Assembly: GCF_000931935.2 (NCBI RefSeq)
Contig: NZ_AZAC01000078.1
Coordinates: 1 to 64,000 of the forward strand
DNA length: 64,000 nucleotides
Direction of reading: 5' to 3'
Source of the DNA: Dethiosulfatarculus sandiegensis
Lineage (GTDB): Bacteria; Desulfobacterota; Desulfarculia; Desulfarculales; Desulfarculaceae
Each line of letters begins with the position of its first letter. Within the stretch, counting starts at the first letter, position 1. The notes beneath the pieces were generated by a model. The model saw nothing but the letters and a program-made list of their open reading frames with translations. It did no database searches and was not told the DNA's origin. A program made the position numbers and the translations under genes. Of this stretch, positions 7,701 to 43,041 are shown in pieces.

Positions 7701-8936
7701 ATGATGACTGATTTTGACCAATTTGAGACCTTTTACCGCACTTTCCGCGAGGTTATTTCTGCGGTCCACGCCAGCAATGAAACCACGGAAGTTTTGGACC
7801 TGGTGGTCTTAAAAATCACTCAAGTGCTGAATGCCAAAGGCGCGTTAATACGCCTTCTCAACCTGGAAACAAACCGCTTTGAGTTAAGCGCCTCCTATGG
7901 TTTGAGCGAGCGTTATCTTGCCAAGGGACCCATCTCCAGCAAAAGGCTGATCAGCGACCTCTATAAAAAGAACAAAGTCGTTATTATCAAAGACATGCTG
8001 AATGACCCTCGGGTCCAGTACCCCAAGGAAGCCCGGGAAGAGGGAATCGAAATGATGCTCGATGTCCCCATGTCCATGGAGGAAAACATAATCGGCATCC
8101 TGCGCACCTTCCTGGGCCGAAAGAGGGAATTTTCCGAAGCGGAACTGCATTTTGTGGTTTCCATAGTGGAGCAATGCGCCTGTGCCATTCAAAAGGCCCG
8201 CTTGCTGGAGACCCAAAAATCCCGGTACGATCACTTGGCCACTCAAACCGAAAAGCTCTCCGCATTGGGGCGCATGGCCGCGGGCATTGCCCATGAAATC
8301 AACAATCCACTGGCCGGGATTCTGCTCTACAGCTCCAATATGTCCAAAAAGGTTCCAAACGACAGCCCCTTGAAGGAAGGCCTGGAGATCATCTCCCACG
8401 AAGCCATGCGTTGCCGCGACATCATTCAAGAGCTTTTGGAGTTCAGTCGGGAAAGAGAAGCCCAAAAGAAAATGACCGATGTAAACCAGGTTATGGCCAA
8501 GGCCCTGGCCGTGGTCGGCAACGAACTACATCTTAATCACATTGAGCTTGAAAAAAACTTTGCTTCTGAATTGCCGGAAAGCATGTTGGACCAAAACCAG
8601 GTCGAGCAGGTATTGATAAATCTGCTTTTAAACGCCATCCAATCTATCAATGAACGGGGGAAAATAACGGTTACAACTCGCACCATTTCAAAAGGGAAAC
8701 GCATACAGGTTGAGGTGACAGACAGTGGGAAAGGCATTTCCGGTGAGTATATTTCAAGAGTGTTTGAACCGTTTTTCTCCACTAAACCAAATGGAACCGG
8801 GCTCGGTTTATCGGTGAGCTACGGCATTATGAAGGGGCATCAGGGCACTATCGATATCCAAAGCAGCTTGGGGGAAGGCACCAAGGTGATCCTGGAGTTT
8901 CCGGTAACCCGGCAAGCCGAAAATTTTGGCGAGTGA
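7701..8936 (+). CDS. Soluble GAF-domain sensor histidine kinase
   Basis: A 411-residue cytoplasmic kinase without membrane segments. The N-terminal GAF sensory domain spans about 25-165. The HisKA dimerisation domain has the H-box GRMAAGIAHEINNPL with His198 as the phosphorylated residue. The HATPase domain has an N-box (NLLLNAIQSI), a G1 box (VTDSGKGIS) and a G2 box (GTGLGLSVSYGI). The frame is open back to a GTG at 7659, but the ATG at 7701 (followed directly by a second ATG) has GAGAG just upstream and starts the recognisable protein. The gene is followed at once by its response regulator. It is divergent from the fdh operon and probably senses a redox- or formate-related ligand (inference). 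Confidence 0.88.
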   Translation: MMTDFDQFETFYRTFREVISAVHASNETTEVLDLVVLKITQVLNAKGALIRLLNLETNRFELSASYGLSERYLAKGPISSKRLISDLYKKNKVVIIKDMLNDPRVQYPKEAREEGIEMMLDVPMSMEENIIGILRTFLGRKREFSEAELHFVVSIVEQCACAIQKARLLETQKSRYDHLATQTEKLSALGRMAAGIAHEINNPLAGILLYSSNMSKKVPNDSPLKEGLEIISHEAMRCRDIIQELLEFSREREAQKKMTDVNQVMAKALAVVGNELHLNHIELEKNFASELPESMLDQNQVEQVLINLLLNAIQSINERGKITVTTRTISKGKRIQVEVTDSGKGISGEYISRVFEPFFSTKPNGTGLGLSVSYGIMKGHQGTIDIQSSLGEGTKVILEFPVTRQAENFGE

Positions 8937-32233: not shown

Positions 32234-34912
32234 ATGAAAGCATATTGGCCCTATTGGGCAAAAATATCAAACTTCCAGGAAAACAATCCAACCAACTGGC
32301 ATTTACTGCCTTTTCACCTCATGGATGTGGCGGCGCAAGGCCTTCTGCTTTTAGAGCGGGACAAAACACTTGCCAACCGCTTAAGCAAGCTGCTTAAGCT
32401 ATCTTTAGAAAAACTTAAAAATTTAATAATCTTCTTTTTCTGTCTGCATGACATTGGCAAGTTTGCCGATACGTTTCAAAGTAAAAACCCGGAGCTTTAC
32501 CAGAAACTCCTTAACCGCACCCACCCCAAGGCAGGAAACAACAATCATGCAGAAATAGGCTACTATATTTGGAAAAAATATTTAGCTGCCAACCTGTTTG
32601 AAATACTCTCCCAAAATCATCCGGACCTGGAGGCCTATGACCTGGAGGATTTACTTATCCCCTTGGCCAGGGCGGTTATGGGGCATCACGGAGCCCCGCC
32701 TTCCTTGGAAAGCGATTGCCTGGAAGACAGCCTCACTGCCGAAGACAAAAAGGCGATTACAGACTGGTTCAACACGCTATGTGAACTGGCCACCTTGGAT
32801 TGGCTGGAGGATCTTCTGCATAATTATGATGAAGAAAGCCTCATAATTGCCTCCTGGCTTGTGGCCGGGATGGTGGTTTTCTGCGACTGGCTCGGCTCAA
32901 ACCCGAATCATTTCCCCTATCATAACCAGCCGATTGAACCCGGGGAATATTTTGAATCCATAGCCAAAAAATCAGCCCGGCAGGCGCTTGAACGCGAAGG
33001 CCTGATTCCCCCGCCTGTTGCGCCTGTTCAGAACCTGGCAAAATTATTCCCCGGCTTCACCTCCCCCACTCCCTTACAGGCAAAGGCCGAGCAATGGGAA
33101 CCCACAGAGAGCCCTCAACTGGTGATCATTGAAGACGCCACCGGTGCGGGCAAAACAGAGGCCGCCCTGCTCATGGTCAACCGGCTCATGGCCCATGGGG
33201 CAGGGCAAGGTTTTTTCTTTGCCCTGCCGACCATGGCGACCAGTAACGCCATGTACAGCCGCATGGCCCATGTTTACGGCCGCCTTTTTCAGGAGACCAC
33301 GGAAGCCAAAGCCTCATTGGTGCTGGCCCATGGCTCAGGCAGGCTGCAGACCAAATTCTTAAGGCAAAAAAACAGATCAAACAAAAACCCCCTTGAACAG
33401 GATGCCTTTTGCGCCGCCTGGTTGGCGGACAACCGCAAAAAAGCCCTTTTGGCCCAGGTGGGTATTGGCACCATTGACCAGGCCCTTATGGGGGTGCTTG
33501 CGTTGCGTCATCAATGTTTGCGGCTTTTGGGACTTAGCCGCAACCTGCTGCTGGTGGATGAGGTGCATGCCTATGACTCATACATGCACGGACTGTTATG
33601 CAATCTGCTTAAATATCAGGCCGCGTTTGGGGGCAGTGCGATCCTGCTCTCTGCCAGCCTGCCCCAAAAGACTCGCCAGGAACTGGTCGACGCCTTTAAC
33701 CGGGGCCTCAAAAACCCGCCGATCCAACTGAAAGAAGATCATTATCCCCTGCTCACCTGGAGCGCCCGGGGAAAGGTCCGGGAGATAAAGACGCCTGCCT
33801 GGAAGCGCAATCAAAGAAAAGTAAGGGTGGATTTTGTTTCCGATAAGGAGCAGGTTCTTGAACGCATCTTAAGCGCAGCCGAACAAGGCCATTGTGTGTG
33901 CTGGATAAGAAACACCGTGGCCGATGCCTTTGATGCCTGGAAAACGCTGAAAGATAAAATCCCTCCTGAAAACCTGCATCTGTTTCACGCCCGTTTTCCC
34001 TTGGGCGACCGCCTGGCCAGGGAGGAGAAGATACAAAACCTTTTCGGAAAGAACAGCACTCAAGAGCAAAGGGCGGGCCAGGTGCTTGTAAGCACGCAGG
34101 TGATAGAACAATCCCTTGATGTGGACTTTGATGTGCTGATAAGCGATCTGGGCCCCATAGACCTGATCATCCAAAGGGCCGGTCGTCTGCAAAGGCACCC
34201 CAGGCCCTACCGCACCCTGGAACCGATTCTCATAATCCATGCCCCGGAGTTCACCGAAGAGCCCGGGGAAGACTGGTATAAAAAGCCCTTTCCCAAAGCC
34301 GCCTTTGTTTATCCGGACCATGCCAGGCTTTGGCTCACAGCCAGGGGGCTTAAACAAAAAGGTTTTATCCAGGTTCCGGAAGGGGTGCGGGAACTGATGG
34401 AAGGGGTTTACGGCCCGGAGGTGGAAGAGCAAATCCCTTGCGGTTTGCAAGCCTCTTTTTATGAAGCTGAAGGGAAGTCTCTTTCCCATCAGTCCGTGGC
34501 TTATTTCAACCGATTAAACCTGGAAGAAGGCTATGCCGCCCAGGGAGACAAATGGTTGGACGATCAAAACGCACCGACCCGTTTAGGCGAGAAAAGCACC
34601 AACCTTTATCTGGCCAAGTGGGATGGCGGGCGTTTGACTCCCTGGTACAAGGAAACTGACCCACTCCATGCCTGGGCCATGAGCCAGGTGAATGTGGCGG
34701 CTTACAAGGTGGAAGGCCCGGCTGAGTATGAAGAGCCTATTACAGACGCAATAGAAAAAACCAAGGAGTCGCTCCCTGACAAGGGGAAATTTTCCGTTCT
34801 GCTTCCCCTGTTTAAGGACCCTGTTACCGGCTGTTGGCAGGGTGAGGCGCGGGGTTCCGGCGGGAAAAAGGTGGCCCTTATCTGCAGCAGGGATTTTGGG
34901 GTTGAGATTTAA
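32234..34912 (+). CDS. cas3: Cas3 nuclease-helicase, type I-E
   Basis: An 892-residue effector that degrades DNA marked by Cascade. The N-terminal HD nuclease domain shows HLMD (His28), LHDIGKF (His72-Asp73) and HHGAP (151-152). The SF2 helicase follows with Walker A DATGAGKT (301-308), DEVH box (about 441-444), SASLP, and motifs V/VI (TQVIEQSLDVDFD ... QRAGRLQRH). A Cas3 C-terminal domain closes the protein. All key residues are present, so it should be active. It is the first gene of the locus and is separated from cse1 by a 487-bp regulatory region. Confidence 0.95.
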   Translation: MKAYWPYWAKISNFQENNPTNWHLLPFHLMDVAAQGLLLLERDKTLANRLSKLLKLSLEKLKNLIIFFFCLHDIGKFADTFQSKNPELYQKLLNRTHPKAGNNNHAEIGYYIWKKYLAANLFEILSQNHPDLEAYDLEDLLIPLARAVMGHHGAPPSLESDCLEDSLTAEDKKAITDWFNTLCELATLDWLEDLLHNYDEESLIIASWLVAGMVVFCDWLGSNPNHFPYHNQPIEPGEYFESIAKKSARQALEREGLIPPPVAPVQNLAKLFPGFTSPTPLQAKAEQWEPTESPQLVIIEDATGAGKTEAALLMVNRLMAHGAGQGFFFALPTMATSNAMYSRMAHVYGRLFQETTEAKASLVLAHGSGRLQTKFLRQKNRSNKNPLEQDAFCAAWLADNRKKALLAQVGIGTIDQALMGVLALRHQCLRLLGLSRNLLLVDEVHAYDSYMHGLLCNLLKYQAAFGGSAILLSASLPQKTRQELVDAFNRGLKNPPIQLKEDHYPLLTWSARGKVREIKTPAWKRNQRKVRVDFVSDKEQVLERILSAAEQGHCVCWIRNTVADAFDAWKTLKDKIPPENLHLFHARFPLGDRLAREEKIQNLFGKNSTQEQRAGQVLVSTQVIEQSLDVDFDVLISDLGPIDLIIQRAGRLQRHPRPYRTLEPILIIHAPEFTEEPGEDWYKKPFPKAAFVYPDHARLWLTARGLKQKGFIQVPEGVRELMEGVYGPEVEEQIPCGLQASFYEAEGKSLSHQSVAYFNRLNLEEGYAAQGDKWLDDQNAPTRLGEKSTNLYLAKWDGGRLTPWYKETDPLHAWAMSQVNVAAYKVEGPAEYEEPITDAIEKTKESLPDKGKFSVLLPLFKDPVTGCWQGEARGSGGKKVALICSRDFGVEI

Positions 34913-35006
34913 ATCAGGCCAACTGCCTGTTGTGTTTACATGACCCGATAGAGCATGATAGGTTCAATCAGTTTCTTTCTCTTTACAACCAAAGTAAAAA
35001 GCCAGT

Positions 35007-35084
35007 AAGTTCCCCATGTTGTGGGGATGAACCGTGTTTGTAAAACAAAAAGAGCCATGTTCCCCGCTCTGCGGGGATAAACAA
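35007..35084 (+). CRISPR. Degenerate mini-CRISPR (two repeats, 22-nt spacer) between cas3 and cse1
   Basis: Repeat 1 (35007..35034) contains GTTCCCCATGTTGTGGGG then ATGAACCG; repeat 2 (35057..35084) contains TGTTCCCCGCTCTGCGGGG then ATAAACA. Both differ from the main-array repeat but keep the hairpin stem: CCCCA/TGGGG in repeat 1, CCCCGC/GCGGGG in repeat 2. The 8-nt handle ATGAACCG of repeat 1 is identical to the main repeat. The spacer is 35035..35056, shorter than the 32-33 nt of the main array. It matches a site at 35237 downward on the minus strand beside an AAG PAM. Cas6e could process it into a short guide RNA (inference). This layout matches the CreR-type cas-regulating RNAs reported near other type I loci. 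Confidence 0.8.
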
Positions 35085-35144
35085 CTAAGAAGAAAGTTTT
35101 GTTTTCATCTAAGCCAATAGAAGGAGGCATTTAACAATAAAACA

Positions 35145-35178
35145 TGTAACTAAAGCAAATTAGTTACATAATTTTTTT
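35145..35178 (+). terminator. Rho-independent terminator after the mini-CRISPR
   Basis: TGTAACTAA (35145..35153), loop AGCAAA, TTAGTTACA (35160..35168), then TAATTTTTTT. A perfect 9-bp stem plus a U-tract. It would end the mini-CRISPR transcript (and cas3 read-through), giving a small RNA of roughly 170 nt or less. Confidence 0.8.
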
Positions 35179-35217
35179 ACAAAAAACTGACTACTTTCAA
35201 CATCATTTTTCACATTT

Positions 35218-35240
35218 CGTGTTTTATTTTAGAAACACTT
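35218..35240 (-). promoter_or_regulatory. Predicted target site of the mini-CRISPR guide in the cse1 upstream region
   Basis: On the minus strand AAG (35240..35238) is followed by TGTTTCTAAAATAAAA, compared with spacer TGTTTGTAAAACAAAA. Fourteen of the first 16 positions match and the two mismatches are at 6 and 12, the bases flipped out by type I-E Cascade; pairing stops at 17. AAG is the canonical type I-E PAM. It lies 160 bp before the cse1 start codon, so bound Cascade could block the effector operon without full R-loop formation. Confidence 0.7.
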
Positions 35241-35283
35241 TACTTCCTACCTATCTTCATGATATCCCTACAGACATAAACTT

Positions 35284-35312
35284 TTGACTTGAGCCATCCC
35301 CATGTCTAGAAG
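35284..35312 (+). promoter_or_regulatory. Candidate sigma70 promoter of the Cascade operon
   Basis: TTGACT (35284..35289), 17-bp spacer, TAGAAG (35307..35312). It is the best -35/-10 pair seen in the region and lies 88 bp before the cse1 ATG. A weaker alternative, TTTACT at 35239..35244, would overlap the predicted guide target. Confidence 0.4.
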
Positions 35313-35399
35313 GCAAGTATTTAGCTTCAAGTTAAAACCCGACAATCAAAAAACTATTTTTAGTTTTGACCATAACTTATTGTTATAGGGGGGAGTAAA

Positions 35400-37001
35400 A
35401 TGGATTCCAACCTCTTACGCATTCCCTGGATTCCGGTAAAGCGCCTAAGCGGCAAAAAAGAAATAATAGCTCCCTGGCAGATCACCGACAATTTTCAGAA
35501 TGACCCCATAATCGGCATTGAGTCTCCCAGGCCTGATTTCAACGGCGCGTTGAACCAATTTCTCATTGGCATTTTACAGACAACCTGGGCCCCTGAATCA
35601 GAAAAAGCATGGCGAAAAATTCTCACCAAACCGCCCTCTCCCCAGGAACTCAAAGACAGCTTTTCCAAATTAGAACCATACTTTAATTTGCTAGGCAACG
35701 GCCCCCGCTTTATACAGGACTTTGACCTTACAGACGGCGCCGAACAAAACGTATCCAACCTGCTTATAGAATCTCCCGGCGGAAACACGGAAAAAAACAA
35801 TGCAGACCTTTTTATCAAAAGGGGCCAGGCAACCAGGCAATGCCCCCATTGCCTGGGCACGGCCCTTTATTGCATGCAGATCAACGCACCTTCAGGCGGC
35901 GTGGGGCACCGCACCTCATTACGCGGAGGCGGTCCTTTAAGCACCATTATCCTGGCAAACACCCTGTGGGAGACGGTCTGGGCCAATGTGTTGCCCAAAA
36001 GGGATTTTGAGGCCCTGGCCGGGAACCCGCAAAAAACCAACCCCCAGGATATCTTTCCCTGGCTGGCCCCCTGCCGCACCAGCGAGGCCAAAACCGGCCA
36101 GGCCACCCTGCCCCAGGACACCAACCCCTTGCAGATGTACTGGGCCACCCCCAGGCGCATTCGCATAATCGATCAGGAACCGGAACAAGGGGTCTGCGAG
36201 ATCTGCGGGCGCATGAGCCAACACCTCACAAGCGCCTATCAAACCAAAAACTATGGGGTGAATTATGAAGGAGCCTGGCAGCACCCCCTGACCCCCTACA
36301 CCAGGGATAAGAAAGGCATGCCCATTGCCAGACACCCCCAGCCCGGCGGGATGGTTTATCGCCATTGGCTGGGGCTGGTCATAACCGATGCCGAGGGCAA
36401 CACCCGACCGGCTAAAGTTGTGCAGCACTTTTTAAATCAGCGCCGCTTTCGGCTTTTGCAGAAACCCCAGGGCAGCCACAGCCCCAGGCTTTGGTGCTTT
36501 GGCTTTGACATGGACAATATGAAAGCCCGGTGCTGGTACGAAAGCACCATGCCCCTGGTGGATATAGACAGCCAACACATGCCCCTTTTGGAGAAAAACA
36601 TCTCCCGCCTGGTTCGGGCGGCTGATCTGGCGGTCTGGCTCTTGCGCACCAACCTGAAAAAGGCCTGGTACAAAAGGCCGGGCGATGCCAAAGGGGATTT
36701 CTCCATCATAGACCAGCGCTTTTGGCAGGAAACGGAAAGCAGTTTCTATGAAGCCCTGGAGCAGGCAATCCAGCTGGTGGAAGAAGGCCGGGACACCGAG
36801 GACCTCCGCAGGGAATGGCTAAGGCTCTTAAGAAACAAGGCGCTTGAGATCTTTGATTCCCTTTCCCAGACCGGCCATTTTGAGGCAGTGGAGCCCAGAA
36901 GGGTGGCCCTGGCCCGTCTGGACCTGGGAAAGGCCCTGAACGCCACCTCCAAAATAGGCAAAATCCTGGACCTTACAAATAAAAAAACCAAAGCAGCATA
37001 A
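35400..37001 (+). CDS. cse1: Cse1 (Cas8e), large subunit of type I-E Cascade
   Basis: A 533-residue Cascade large subunit that reads the PAM and recruits Cas3. It begins with the family-typical short strand (NLLRIPWIPVKRLSG), has the conserved GNGPRFIQDF loop region and the SGGVGHRTSLRGGGP segment, followed by a C-terminal four-helix bundle. A zinc-knuckle-like CPHC and CEICGR pair is visible. GGGGGGAG precedes the ATG. First gene of the cse1-cse2-cas7-cas5-cas6-cas1-cas2 operon. Confidence 0.93.
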   Translation: MDSNLLRIPWIPVKRLSGKKEIIAPWQITDNFQNDPIIGIESPRPDFNGALNQFLIGILQTTWAPESEKAWRKILTKPPSPQELKDSFSKLEPYFNLLGNGPRFIQDFDLTDGAEQNVSNLLIESPGGNTEKNNADLFIKRGQATRQCPHCLGTALYCMQINAPSGGVGHRTSLRGGGPLSTIILANTLWETVWANVLPKRDFEALAGNPQKTNPQDIFPWLAPCRTSEAKTGQATLPQDTNPLQMYWATPRRIRIIDQEPEQGVCEICGRMSQHLTSAYQTKNYGVNYEGAWQHPLTPYTRDKKGMPIARHPQPGGMVYRHWLGLVITDAEGNTRPAKVVQHFLNQRRFRLLQKPQGSHSPRLWCFGFDMDNMKARCWYESTMPLVDIDSQHMPLLEKNISRLVRAADLAVWLLRTNLKKAWYKRPGDAKGDFSIIDQRFWQETESSFYEALEQAIQLVEEGRDTEDLRREWLRLLRNKALEIFDSLSQTGHFEAVEPRRVALARLDLGKALNATSKIGKILDLTNKKTKAA

Positions 37002-37025: not shown

Positions 37026-37571
37026 ATGAAAAGCAAAAACAACATCAACTTCTCCTATCCGGACCAAACGGATACCCGGATCTTTTTAGAATGGTGGGAA
37101 GATCTGGTCAACAGCTCGGCAGACAGGGCCTGGCTGCGCAGGTCGCGCAGCCCCGGCGAGTTGGCCATGTGCCCGGCGTATCACTCCCTTTTGGCCCGTT
37201 ACAGACAGGCCGAGCTTAATGTCAACAAATGGAACGGCCCCAAGCTGGCTGTAATGGCCGGACTGGCCGCCCATGTAAAGGGCCGGGTGGAAGACACGCC
37301 CCTGGCCAAACAGATGGCCCTGCCCCCCAAAAAAGGGGACAACCCCAGGGTGAGCGAGCTCCGCTTCAGGCGCATCTTAAGCAAAACCACTTTGGATGAT
37401 CTTTATCTGCCCATGTACAGGGTTTTGCGCATGTTGGACGGGGTCTGCGACCTTTGGGATCTGGCCAGATCAATTTACTGGTGGGAAAAAAACACCCTCA
37501 ACCAACAAGGGAAGCAGGATACCCGCACCCGTTGGGCCGTGGAATATTACAGCCACCTCAAGACCAAATAA
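37026..37571 (+). CDS. cse2: Cse2 (Cas11e), small subunit of Cascade
   Basis: A 181-residue helical protein, present as a dimer in type I-E Cascade where it stabilises the displaced DNA strand. It is identified by position between cse1 and cas7, by size, and by the RLLRILSKTTLDD-like arginine-rich stretch (LRFRRILSKTTLDDLYLPMY). A good AGGAGG ribosome-binding site lies before the ATG, 24 bp after cse1. Confidence 0.9.
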   Translation: MKSKNNINFSYPDQTDTRIFLEWWEDLVNSSADRAWLRRSRSPGELAMCPAYHSLLARYRQAELNVNKWNGPKLAVMAGLAAHVKGRVEDTPLAKQMALPPKKGDNPRVSELRFRRILSKTTLDDLYLPMYRVLRMLDGVCDLWDLARSIYWWEKNTLNQQGKQDTRTRWAVEYYSHLKTK

Positions 37572-37599
37572 TCATCTCTTATGTAAAAGGATATAAATC

Positions 37600-38670
37600 A
37601 TGAGCCGGTTCATTCAATTGCATATGCTTACCTCTTATCCCCCCGCCAACCTCAACCGCGACGACCTGGGCCGCCCCAAAACTGCGATCATGGGCGGAGC
37701 CCAGCGCCTGAGGATTTCCTCCCAATGCCTGAAACGCACCTGGAGGACCTCTCCGGTGGTGGAGGAGGCCCTTAAAGGCAATTTGGGCCAAAGGACCCGC
37801 CGCATGGGCAGGGTCCTTTTGGGAAATCTTTTGGAAAAAGGGATTGATAAAGAAAAGGCCGTGGCATGCACCTCCGCCTTGGTCGAGTTCTTCGGCACCA
37901 TAGAAAAACCCAAAAAAGGCGACGATAAGCCAAAAGAAGAAAAACTCCTGGATATCAAGGAACTTTTCTTTTTCAGCCCGGAAGAAAAAAAGGCCATGGA
38001 GGAAATGGCTCTCCGCTATTTGGAAGAGGGAAAACTGCCGACTGAAAAGGATTCCAAAGAGATCATGGGTCAGACCCAAACAGCGGTGGACCTGGCTTTG
38101 TTTGGCCGCATGGTGGCCAAACAACCCGCTTACAATGTGGAGGCGGCGGCCCAGGTTGCCCATGCCTTGAGCGTGCACGAAGTGGCTGTGGAAGAAGATT
38201 TTTTCAGCGCAGTGGACGAACTCAACGAGGGTGAGGAAGACATGGGCGCAGGCCACATTGGCGAGACCGAATTTGCAGCCGGATATTTTTATCTCTACGC
38301 CTGCATCAACTACGACCTTTTAGTCAAAAACCTGGGCGGCGACCGGGAACTGGCCGACAAGGGCATCCGGGCCTTTGTGGAGGCCATGGCCACCAGCGCG
38401 CCCAAAGGCAAAATCAACTCCTTTGGCAGTTATGCCTATACCAGTTACTGCCTGGCGGAAAAGGGCTCCCGCCAGCCCCGCTCCCTTTCCGTCTCCTTTT
38501 TGAATCCCGTAAAAAGCAAAAACATGCTCACAGAGGCCATATCCGCCCTGGAAAACACCAGAGACGACATGGACGCAGCCTACGGGCCTTGCGCGGAAGA
38601 TTCCTATGTCATGAATGTTCCGGAAAGAAAAGGCACTCTGCCTGAACTTCTGGACTTTATCGCCGGGTGA
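37600..38670 (+). CDS. cas7e: Cas7e (Cse4), backbone subunit of Cascade
   Basis: A 356-residue RAMP-fold protein, six copies of which coat the crRNA. The N-terminus FIQLHMLTSYPPANLNRDDL, then PKTAIMGGAQRLRISSQCLKR, is the highly conserved Cas7e signature, and GKINSFGSYAYTSY near the end is also typical. The beta-hairpin thumbs of this subunit flip out every sixth base of the guide-target duplex, which matters for the mini-CRISPR target described here. Confidence 0.95.
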   Translation: MSRFIQLHMLTSYPPANLNRDDLGRPKTAIMGGAQRLRISSQCLKRTWRTSPVVEEALKGNLGQRTRRMGRVLLGNLLEKGIDKEKAVACTSALVEFFGTIEKPKKGDDKPKEEKLLDIKELFFFSPEEKKAMEEMALRYLEEGKLPTEKDSKEIMGQTQTAVDLALFGRMVAKQPAYNVEAAAQVAHALSVHEVAVEEDFFSAVDELNEGEEDMGAGHIGETEFAAGYFYLYACINYDLLVKNLGGDRELADKGIRAFVEAMATSAPKGKINSFGSYAYTSYCLAEKGSRQPRSLSVSFLNPVKSKNMLTEAISALENTRDDMDAAYGPCAEDSYVMNVPERKGTLPELLDFIAG

Positions 38671-38673
38671 GCC

Positions 38674-39417
38674 ATGAAAAATTATCTATATTTCAGATTA
38701 TACGGCGCCATGGCCTCATGGGGTGAAACAGCAGTGGGCACAAAACGGCCCACTGCCCTTCATCCCGGCAAGGCCGCGGTTTTAGGGCTTTTGGCCGCCG
38801 CCCTGGGCCTGGACCGGGATCAGGATGAAACCTTCAGCCAAATGAGCCAAGCCTATGGGCTGGCGGTATTGGTTGAATCCGCAGGGTTGCCCCTGCGCGA
38901 CTACCATACCGCCCAGGTTCCTGACAGAACACAACTAAAAAAAATGGGCGGGGCCAACACCCGGGCCGAGGAGCTGAGCGCTCCCAAACTGGGGACTATC
39001 TTGTCCTCCAGGGATTACCGCACAGATGGCCTTTATTACATCCTGCTCTGGCAGGCGGCTCCCAATCCGCCCTATGGCCTGGCCGAGTTGGCTGATGCCC
39101 TGAAAGAACCCAAATACCATCTTTACCTGGGCAGAAAGTCCTGCCCCTTGGGGCTTCCCTTGCAGCCCAAGGTGATACAAGCCACAGGCCTTAAACAGGC
39201 CTGCGGCCTATTGCCTGAGGATCTGCCCAAGCAATTTGAAAAATTAATCAAAGCAGAAGCCGGGGGGCTTTTTTGGGAAGACACGGGCCGGGAAGAGGCC
39301 ATAAGGCCCCGGCTCACCAACCCGGTCAGGGATCTTCCCTTAAGCCGCCGGCGCTGGCAGTTTGCAGTGCGCCAGGAGCATTTCACACCCATCAGTGAGC
39401 TAAAAAGGGGGGACTGA
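38674..39417 (+). CDS. cas5e: Cas5e, crRNA 5'-handle-binding subunit
   Basis: A 247-residue RAMP protein. The start YLYFRLYGAMASWGE and the GLLAAALGLDRDQ segment are the conserved Cas5e N-terminal region; it caps the 5' handle (ATGAACCG here) of the crRNA. It starts 3 nt after the cas7e stop. Confidence 0.93.
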   Translation: MKNYLYFRLYGAMASWGETAVGTKRPTALHPGKAAVLGLLAAALGLDRDQDETFSQMSQAYGLAVLVESAGLPLRDYHTAQVPDRTQLKKMGGANTRAEELSAPKLGTILSSRDYRTDGLYYILLWQAAPNPPYGLAELADALKEPKYHLYLGRKSCPLGLPLQPKVIQATGLKQACGLLPEDLPKQFEKLIKAEAGGLFWEDTGREEAIRPRLTNPVRDLPLSRRRWQFAVRQEHFTPISELKRGD

Positions 39418-39418
39418 A

Positions 39419-40092
39419 ATGTACATAAGTAAGCTCACCTTTAACCCCAAGGCCTTGGAGACCCCGGATTTCTGGCAACTGGCCATGGGGCATGGAGAAC
39501 TGGACCATAAAGTCATTTGGCAGGTCTTCTCTGACAGCCCGGAGCGGAAAAGGGATTTTTTGTTCCGCCGCATGCAGCAAACCGGAAACATCCCCCAATA
39601 CCTGGCCATATCAGACCGCGCCCCTTTGCAAAACCCTTTATGGAATATCCAAACCAAGCCCTATGAACCCCGCCTCAGCAAGGGAACCAAACTGGGGTTT
39701 ACCATGCGTATAAACCCGGTGGTCAAAAGAAGGGATGCAAACGGCAAACAGACCCGGCACGACCTGGTCATGGACCAAAAGCAAAAATTAAAAACAGCCG
39801 GGGTTGCCAGAGACAGCTGGCCCATGCAGGCCGAACTGGTGCAAAAGGCCGGGGTTGGCTGGCTTGAAAACCGGGCCGAGCCAAACGGATTTTCTTTTGC
39901 AAAAGATAAAATAAGGGCAGAGGGGTATCACCAAAAGCGCTTTTTCAAGGGCAGGAGGCCGGTCAGCTTAAGCAGCCTTGACCTGTCCGGCGAGCTTTTG
40001 ATCACAGACGAGGAATTGTTTTTAAAGACCCTTTATCAAGGCCTTGGCCCGGCCAAGGGCTATGGCTTCGGCTTGGTTCTGGTCAGGCCCCT

Positions 40093-40096
<4 letters not shown>
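39419..40096 (+). CDS. cas6e: Cas6e, crRNA-processing endoribonuclease
   Basis: A 225-residue RAMP ribonuclease that cuts each CRISPR repeat at the base of its hairpin, leaving the ATGAACCG handle. The C-terminal glycine-rich loop GLGPAKGYGFGLVLV is the Cas6e signature. The conserved N-terminal ferredoxin fold starts YISKLTFNPKA. It starts right after cas5e and overlaps cas1 by 4 nt (ATGA). Confidence 0.93.
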
Positions 40097-41287
<1,191 letters not shown>

Positions 41288-41364
41288 GGCCTTAAAAAAG
41301 GCAAAATAATCGGTAAAAAAATCGCGTTCAAAAAACGCAATTATTTCAAGTGTTTTTAAGAAGA
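41288..41364 (+). promoter_or_regulatory. CRISPR leader
   Basis: A 77-bp AT-rich stretch between cas2 and the first repeat, with A-runs and a small inverted repeat (GCGTT...AACGC). It should contain the array promoter and the integration-directing site. AAG followed by TGTTTTTAA (41348..41359) next to the first repeat matches the mini-CRISPR seed (positions 1-5 and 7-9). Confidence 0.65.
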
Positions 41365-43041
41365 GTGTTCCCCGCATACGCGGGGATGAACCGGTGAAGC
41401 GCTTTCTACACAGTTAGAACGACAGGTGTTCCCCGCATACGCGGGGATGAACCGGCAAAACTTTGTATGTCTTACATAATCCTCGGGTGTTCCCCGCATA
41501 CGCGGGGATGAACCGAATGGCCGCTCACTCATTTTTCCGACCACCATGTGTTCCCCGCATACGCGGGGATGAACCGTTGTTGACTTTTCTCGTCATACCA
41601 GACAGGCTGTGTTCCCCGCATACGCGGGGATGAACCGGCAATGGGAAAAAACAAGTGTTGACCTGGCAAGTGTTCCCCGCATACGCGGGGATGAACCGGA
41701 ATATTTATCGTCACCAAAACAAACCGGCAGGTGTTCCCCGCATACGCGGGGATGAACCGCAATGTATCTTCGTTTTTTAAAAAACGAAGTTGTGTTCCCC
41801 GCATACGCGGGGATGAACCGGCCGGGGCTTTGGTTTTGGCCAAGGTCCAAAAGTGTTCCCCGCATACGCGGGGATGAACCGTCATTAGACACTGACCACG
41901 CCGTGGAAATAAGGTGTTCCCCGCATACGCGGGGATGAACCGACATATTATTAGGAAAAACTGAAGACTGGTCGGTGTTCCCCGCATACGCGGGGATGAA
42001 CCTGGCCAAGAGGTTGAACGTGCCCCTGGTGTGGCGTGTTCCCCGCATACGCGGGGATGAACCGGTTTAAACCTTAAATACAAGCACGCGCTTAGTGTGT
42101 TCCCCGCATACGCGGGGATGAACCGATAACTAGTCCCGTGTTCGTCCTCGCATTCGAGTGTTCCCCGCATACGCGGGGATGAACCGCACAGAACAGGCAA
42201 AACGCGTTAGTGGTGAAGGTGTTCCCCGCATACGCGGGGATGAACCGCTTTGCGTTAGCGGGAGCAGGGGAGTGTCTAAGTGTTCCCCGCATACGCGGGG
42301 ATGAACCGGCAACACATTAGTTAGATCATCGATTTGATTAGTGTTCCCCGCATACGCGGGGATGAACCGCACTTGAATGTTCCCTTTGTCGAACCTTTCA
42401 AGTGTTCCCCGCATACGCGGGGATGAACCTGCCACTGGAGCGCGCCAAAGGCGGTTAAGTTCCGTGTTCCCCGCATACGCGGGGATGAACCGTAATAAAA
42501 TTTGGCAAAAAAGTTTAGTTTTGAGTGTTCCCCGCATACGCGGGGATGAACCGTATACGCGAGAATTCGAGGTATTAATGCCTATGTGTTCCCCGCATAC
42601 GCGGGGATGAACCGCCTGAAAGACGGGAAAGCGCACGAACAGACATGTGTTCCCCGCATACGCGGGGATGAACCGAGATTGGTAAATCCCTTGATCTTAC
42701 CTGGAAAGTGTTCCCCGCATACGCGGGGATGAACCGATTATGATGATTACACCTACATCCCTTTATTTGTGTTCCCCGCATACGCGGGGATGAACCGATA
42801 TCGTTGAGGCTGCGGCGAATTATGCACGTGTGTTCCCCGCATACGCGGGGATGAACCGGCTGGCAACGCGATCTGAGCGGCGCTGTGCGCGTGTTCCCCG
42901 CATACGCGGGGATGAACCGGCTGGCAACGCGATCTGAGCGGCGCTGTGCGCGTGTTCCCCGCATACGCGGGGATGAACCGGCGGGCGATTGAGCCACCAA
43001 CCACCCGCCAAGGTGTTCCCCGCATACGCGGGGATGAATCA
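41365..43041 (+). CRISPR. Type I-E CRISPR array, 28 repeats and 27 spacers
   Basis: Repeats are 29 nt, GTGTTCCCCGCATACG then CGGGGATGAACCG, with period 61 (32-nt spacers; spacer 18 is 33 nt). The palindromic core CCCCGC/GCGGGG forms the Cas6e hairpin. The array runs in the same direction as the cas genes, with the leader on the left. Repeats 11 and 18 end in CCT instead of CCG. The last repeat (43013..43041) is degenerate at its end (ATGAATCA), marking the old end. Spacers 25 and 26 are identical. Spacer 7 is nearly wholly palindromic. The repeats are otherwise uniform, consistent with an active array. Confidence 0.98.

Follow-up and report, generated by a model that had tools for sequence, protein, structure and literature searches.

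A mini-CRISPR between cas3 and cse1 of Dethiosulfatarculus sandiegensis as a candidate CreR-type guide for type I-E Cascade

The window analysed here, a stretch of 64,000 nt of Dethiosulfatarculus sandiegensis DNA, contains a mini-CRISPR between cas3 and cse1 that probably (at a probability of about 0.72) encodes a guide RNA of the CreR type, by which Cascade would repress the cse1 operon. The unit comprises two degenerate repeats (psiR1 and psiR2) and one spacer (psiS) on the cas strand. Its anatomy, the match of psiS to an AAG-flanked site in the same gap, the uniqueness of this match in the assembly and the occurrence of fitting guide-target pairs in relatives are shown by the sequences themselves.

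The window holds the type I-E gene set, namely, cas3, cse1, cse2, cas7, cas5, cas6e, cas1 and cas2 (Table 1). The cas3 product also matches NF007248 (E=1.2e-158), with 529.8 bits, under the cut-off of 569. The gap of 487 nt between the end of cas3 (34912) and the start of cse1 (35400) is AT-rich; a weak-tailed terminator-like site at 34915-34929, listed by the terminator scan, was left unused. A search of the gap DNA against plasmids returned zero matches, and 40 plasmid records carried a Cas8e match. The assembly comprises 5.93 Mb in 82 contigs, with 97.8% completeness and 5.4% contamination. The main CRISPR array follows the cas genes and has 27 recognised repeats with a period of 61 nt (29-nt repeats and 32-nt spacers); at 42829-42980 two adjacent spacers of this array are identical.

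Table 1. Features of the type I-E locus and of the cas3-cse1 gap, in window coordinates
Feature	Position	Strand	Details
cas3	32234..34912	+	TIGR01587 cas3_core, E=6e-70 (above its cut-off)
psiR1, first of the two degenerate repeats, 28 nt	35007..35034	+	handle ATGAACCG at 35027-35034
Predicted guide RNA	35027..35076	+	from repeat anatomy: 8-nt handle + 22-nt spacer + 20 nt
psiS, 22-nt spacer	35035..35056	+	length assumes that psiR2 starts at 35057
psiR2, degenerate second repeat, 28 nt	35057..35084	+	last 8 nt are ATAAACAA
AAGGAGG, Shine-Dalgarno-like	35121..35127	+	read from the sequence
Terminator-like AT-rich hairpin and T7	35144-35169 and 35172-35178	+	-9.3 kcal/mol, z -3.36
Protospacer	35222..35237	-	psiS pairs at positions 1-5, 7-11 and 13-16
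PAM AAG	35238..35240	-	CTT on the + strand
TTTACT, -35-like hexamer	35239..35244	+	holds two PAM bases; score 4.9, rank 15 of 293
28-aa ORF	35302..35388	+	ends at the cse1 ribosome-binding site; unlisted by the SD scan
cse1 (casA/cas8e)	35400..37001	+	TIGR02547, E=2.1e-97
cse2, cas7, cas5, cas6e	37026..40096	+	profile matches
cas1e and cas2e	40093..41287	+	profile matches; cas2 start putative
Second AAG-flanked guide match	41348-41361 (AAG and site; seed 41351..41361)	+	9/10 seed, fails at position 10
Main type I-E CRISPR array	41365..43041	+	common repeat GTGTTCCCCGCATACGCGGGGATGAACCG

Both psiR1 and psiR2 fold as Cas6e-type hairpins, with folding energies of -10.2 and -13.1 kcal/mol, respectively, compared with -14.4 kcal/mol for a main-array repeat, and both are one base shorter than the array repeat. 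With one mismatch allowed, the repeat shape GTTCCCC-N7-GGGGATNAAC is found in the whole assembly only in these two repeats. The pair of divergent 28-nt repeats and the single 22-nt spacer set the unit apart from an ordinary array; degenerate repeats, a Cas6-type hairpin, an 8-nt handle and a single spacer are the anatomy of a CreR unit. The ends of the predicted guide RNA assume that Cas6e cuts after GGGG in each repeat. The terminator-like hairpin starts 60 nt past psiR2 and was unlisted by the terminator scan, presumably because the scan needs at least three G-C pairs and the stem has two. The AAGGAGG sequence that precedes it is followed at the usual spacing by no ATG, GTG or TTG before the hairpin; lying within the predicted mini-CRISPR transcript, it is perhaps the relic of a lost toxin ORF.

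Cascade flips out every sixth base of the guide-target pairing. With positions 6 and 12 set aside, psiS matches the minus strand from 35237 to 35222 at 14 of 14 positions, and position 17 is mismatched. The earlier note had described two degenerate repeats with hairpins and an intact handle, a 22-nt spacer, a terminator 60 nt further on, and an AAG-preceded minus-strand site at 35237 that differs from the spacer only at positions 6 and 12 of 16, after which pairing stops; folding and the sequence bear out all of these elements, the terminator being the AT-rich hairpin with its seven T.

The match was compared with chance over the 315 nt downstream of the unit, using dinucleotide-shuffled targets (n=4000) and shuffled spacers (n=4000). 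A run of at least 14 occurred in 2/4000 shuffled targets with any PAM and in 0/4000 with AAG, and among the shuffled spacers in 0/4000 in either case, while 27 spacers of the main array, taken as controls, reached a best run of 6. In the 5.93-Mb assembly, 35237 is the only AAG-flanked 14/14 site, and when the PAM is disregarded, psiS itself and the 35237 target are the only 14/14 sites; PAM-free sites with one mismatch number 13, no more than in the reversed-pattern control. A plain PAM-free count over 14 positions gives a tie between the target and the terminator site at 35185 (12/14, PAM AGT), because both are AT-rich. The shuffles, the array-spacer controls, the uniqueness in the assembly and the swapped guides described below rule out simple chance, and the guide-target match is confirmed as real. 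The gap thus presents what is expected of a CreR target, that is, a PAM-flanked site with partial pairing (seed positions 1-5 and 7-11) ahead of the cas genes.

From these features, we infer transcription and processing of the unit, loading of its RNA, targeting of a promoter, binding without cleavage, and release. The unit at 35007-35084 would encode a crRNA-like regulatory RNA, the transcript starting upstream of 35007 and ending at the hairpin, at about 35178. Cas6e would cleave both degenerate repeats, and the operon's own Cascade would load the 22-nt guide, which would bring it to the AAG and target at 35240-35222, downstream of the mini-CRISPR and upstream of cse1. Through about 16 nt of interrupted pairing, Cascade would bind there and block transcription into cse1-cse2-cas7-cas5-cas6-cas1-cas2; since pairing of this length should yield no full R-loop, no attack by Cas3 is proposed to follow. 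Scarcity of Cascade, its occupation by other crRNAs or its inhibition by an anti-CRISPR would release the operon.

Related loci were collected by a contig search (26 loci) and by whole-genome searches of the order, the class, the phylum and two further classes of this phylum, all of them picked by likeness to the Cas8e of the window. The first pass comprised 71 loci, with L005 (a second piece of the L006 gene) and L008 (weak, with stops) excluded. The strict survey took 66 of the 71, dropping L007, L010, L016 and L047 because too little sequence lay upstream, and L049, whose match was weak and partial and which has no gap. Gaps of at least 90 nt were present in 41 of the 66 loci. For five of these 41 (L048 and L064-L067), which have no clear upstream ORF, a 700-nt stretch was used, and L065 and L066 proved positive. 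For a locus to score, a candidate with hairpin and handle had to fit an AAG site of its own gap at 8 or more of 10 seed positions. A fitting guide and AAG site, matching at 9-10 of 10 seed positions, was found in 23 of the 41 gaps, the window included, these counts being of loci related to varying degree and not of independent events. Guides swapped onto other gaps reached 9/10 in 4/920 and 8/10 in 9/920 combinations, a comparison slightly biased to the observed side, as the survey took the best candidate per locus and the control one guide per locus. The strict test was negative in 18 of the 41 gaps, nine of which had no handle candidate and nine candidates that did not fit. Under looser rules the arrangement is also present in three of these 18, L011, L032 and L041, which stand outside the 23; a looser earlier survey had counted L060 and L075 through non-AAG sites.

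Over the 23 loci, positions 6 and 12, unused in the choice of sites, are mismatched in 36/46 cases, close to the approximately 75% expected for unrelated letters. Positions 13-17, which served only as a tie-breaker, are mismatched in 35/115 cases (80/115 match), and seed positions, which the choice of sites favours, in 10/230. Position 18 is mismatched in 17 of the 23 loci. Positions 6 and 12 therefore behave as unconstrained and positions 13-17 as constrained, the pattern predicted for Cascade pairing in which every sixth base is flipped out.

In the order of the window, 21 genomes were searched and a Cas8e match was found in four, all of the same family: the window's own, G003, G006 and G019. 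The guides of L004 (in G003; seed AGGTA.AAGTT) and L006 (in G019; seed TGTTT.TTTTA, compared with TGTTT.TAAAA in the window) each match their own gap at 10/10 positions with AAG, and in both loci the mini-CRISPR lies on the cas strand and the target on the opposite one. Their targets are upstream of the mini-CRISPR, whereas that of the window is downstream. The closest Cas8e relative found, L003 (in G006; 60% identity), has cas3 and cse1 only 17 nt apart, and this 17-nt gap contains no mini-CRISPR unit. Two Bordetella ansorpii genomes contribute one locus each, L017 and L019, with related spacers that fit their targets at 9/10 (L017, mismatched at position 10) and 10/10. Where the two spacers differ, at positions 7 and 8, the targets differ correspondingly; the protospacers of the two loci are on opposite strands and are therefore not necessarily a single inherited site. 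For the earlier note, independent divergence of spacer and target in related genomes would have spoken against self-limitation of Cascade through a unit upstream of cse1. The pairs fit their own gaps instead, and such matching pairs lend support to the proposed self-limitation; as the targets lie at varying positions, this support comes from the fit within each locus and not from stepwise co-change of a single site.

Several further features of the related units were recorded. In L032, the target and its AAG are present twice, at 8687 and 8709, 22 nt apart, and in L074 the site lies directly before the unit's own first repeat. The distance from the handle to the psiR2 hairpin, considered in 14 mini-CRISPRs, falls in two classes: 23-24 nt (the window, L011, L017, L019, L031 and L034), which is about 10-11 nt shorter than the 34-35 nt of the other (L006, L013, L023, L041, L057 and L073); L032 has 27 nt, and L026 gave no value.

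Promoters at the targets were predicted with an approximate sigma-70 matrix. In 11 of the 23 loci, compared with about 3.7 expected, the top-ranked + strand promoter shares sequence with the Cascade footprint; the expectation sums fractions per locus and ignores AT-rich composition, which in such targets favours promoter-like matches by itself. In six loci (L004, L006, L013, L023, L026 and L031) the -35 box of the top-ranked promoter begins at base 2 of the PAM complement. This PAM-overlapping promoter ranks first in L004, L006, L013, L023 and L031, and in L026 it is first in a narrower range and fourth of 173 in a wider one. The predicted promoters of L004 and L006, CTTGACC-17-CATACT and CTTGACT-17-TAAAGT, are good ones and hold the PAM inside the -35 box, and the units of these two loci would repress their own transcript plus the cas genes behind it, judging by their layout. 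In the window, repression would be limited to what lies past the unit's own terminator. Its -35-like TTTACT has a poor -10 partner, and the sigma-70 model rates the promoter at the window target as weak: the two best predicted promoters lie 47 and 95 nt beyond the PAM-overlapping one, with the third-ranked one overlapping the target. Given the rank of the PAM-overlapping promoter, the promoter controlled in the window is one that we infer.

The guide might instead be part of a CreTA-type addiction module; it would then keep a short toxic ORF or RNA of the gap repressed, with cse1 merely lying next to it. Such a module has a published precedent in the cas3-casA gap of the type I-E system of Citrobacter rodentium, as described in PMC12055562, and the related loci offer candidates. 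A scan for Shine-Dalgarno (SD)-led ORFs of 3-110 aa, run on 14 loci that do not include all 23 positives, found cas-strand ORFs of 12-83 aa downstream of the target in nine of them (L011, L017, L019, L023, L031, L032, L041, L057 and L073), although its loose rule, by which four bases suffice, means that some may be chance. Seven of the nine ORFs (all except those of L041 and L073) contain a hydrophobic stretch (15-residue mean of at least 2.0). Where a small ORF follows the target, a toxin and not the cas genes may be under control. Hydrophobic ORFs of 28-52 aa between target and cse1 in L011, L017, L019, L023, L032 and L057 are possible Cascade-repressed toxins, and a 12-codon ORF at 1323 in L073, with AGGAGG and three TTA codons before the stop, recalls rare-codon CreT toxins. 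In the window itself, the lone AAGGAGG and the 28-aa ORF at 35302, whose codons 3-4 are AGA AGG, could be read in the same sense. However, the AAGGAGG is upstream of the target, with no start codon at the usual distance; the 28-aa ORF lacks an SD lead, and AGG is a frequent codon in seven of the cas genes (of 179 Arg codons, 53 are AGG and 15 AGA). On the cas strand of the window gap, the scan yielded no SD-led frame between 3 and 110 aa, and its lone hit in the gap is a 4-codon frame on the opposite strand. An addiction module in the window is thus considered unlikely, without being negligible. In the gap no toxin ORF with efficient translation signals was found, and the SD scan, to which an RNA toxin would be invisible, revealed no toxin coupling; with no SD-led ORF on its cas strand, the window unit is filed with CreR.

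It is highly improbable that the unit is what is left of a decaying ordinary array, or a stray self-targeting spacer that lacks function. The degeneracy of both repeats, their being one base under the array repeat length and the lack of a unit in L003 would agree with decay, but handle, hairpins and pairing are retained while positions 6 and 12 differ, and the pattern is present in 23 of 41 gaps; on this recurrence, plain array decay was rejected. Barely credible is the reading that the guide represses transcription of the mini-CRISPR itself, or acts at the leader site 41351, and not at cse1. Repression of the own promoter would have a parallel in L004 and L006, where the targeted promoter is upstream of the mini-CRISPR, but in the window the 35237 site is downstream of the unit and its terminator-like hairpin, so that binding there should spare the mini-CRISPR start. 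Apart from the 35237 target, the 41351 site, 14 nt ahead of the first array repeat, is the only AAG site of this quality in the window, and its 9/10 seed match is equalled within the leader by 5 of 20000 permuted spacers; against its use, it fails at seed position 10, and the AAG sites with a run of at least 6 in nine other loci (eight with a recognised array) include no leader match. A single guide with two addresses, CreR-Cascade acting both at 35237 and at the leader-repeat junction 41351, is a rather improbable proposal; if true, the abundance of Cascade could limit both its own proteins and its guides, or could block the insertion of new spacers. As psiS together with psiR2 resembles the leader end together with the first array repeat, they possibly descend from a copy of that junction, which is a plainer reading of the same match.

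If the units act as proposed here, Cascade-guided self-control may be common among the relatives of this type I-E system, given the 23 of 41 wide gaps with fitting pairs. The guide-target pairs carry the every-sixth-base rule of Cascade as a natural signature. The fall of the PAM within the predicted -35 box in six loci suggests a search rule that combines a mini-CRISPR in the gap, AAG in a -35 box and free positions 6 and 12; the presence or absence of a small ORF after the target would then sort toxin-antitoxin versions from cas regulators. The commonness in the sample, the geometry of the PAM and the -35 box, and the second partial match, at the array leader, add to the interest of the unit.

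Among known systems, the unit is closest in type to CreR (Liu et al. 2023 Cell Host Microbe), described in PMC13131331 and in the review PMC12737573 as a crRNA-like RNA with limited pairing to a cas promoter through which the Cas effector represses its own genes; PMC13131331, citing Liu et al. 2023, states such autorepression for types I-B, I-E and V-A. The earlier note's premise that crRNA-like RNAs with short pairing repress cas operons in type I systems agrees with this report of CreR (PMC13131331). Another type I-E arrangement, CreTA of Citrobacter rodentium (PMC12055562), is described as a 96-bp toxin ORF with CreA on the opposite strand and a target in the cas3-casA gap. The window shares with it the location in this gap, the repeat-like and spacer-like segments and a target with a type I-E PAM at its side upstream of the next ORF. 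In that system, however, the PAM is ATG, CreA is on the opposite strand and the toxin ORF lies downstream, whereas the window has AAG and a unit on the cas strand, with its own terminator-like hairpin and no SD-led small ORF after the target. In this last respect it is the other loci, with SD-led ORFs after the target, that resemble the module of C. rodentium (PMC12055562). CreA of Halobacterium hubeiense, of type I-B, requires positions 1-5 and 7-11 for repression, which mutation of position 6 or 12 leaves unharmed, according to PMC8501985. Two degenerate repeats, pairing over positions 1-5 and 7-11 and a target-side PAM are common to this system and the window, but the former is archaeal and of type I-B, its PAM is TTC and it controls an RNA toxin (PMC8501985). 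With CreR, for which type I-E is named in PMC13131331, the window shares a crRNA-like guide, limited pairing ahead of the cas genes and, as proposed, autorepression by the Cas effector; the evidence for the window unit is sequence, and the comparison covers the kind of RNA, its pairing, its effect and the type of system. As CreR in type I-E has already been reported, the principle is not new, and the mini-CRISPR of D. sandiegensis would represent a new example of it.
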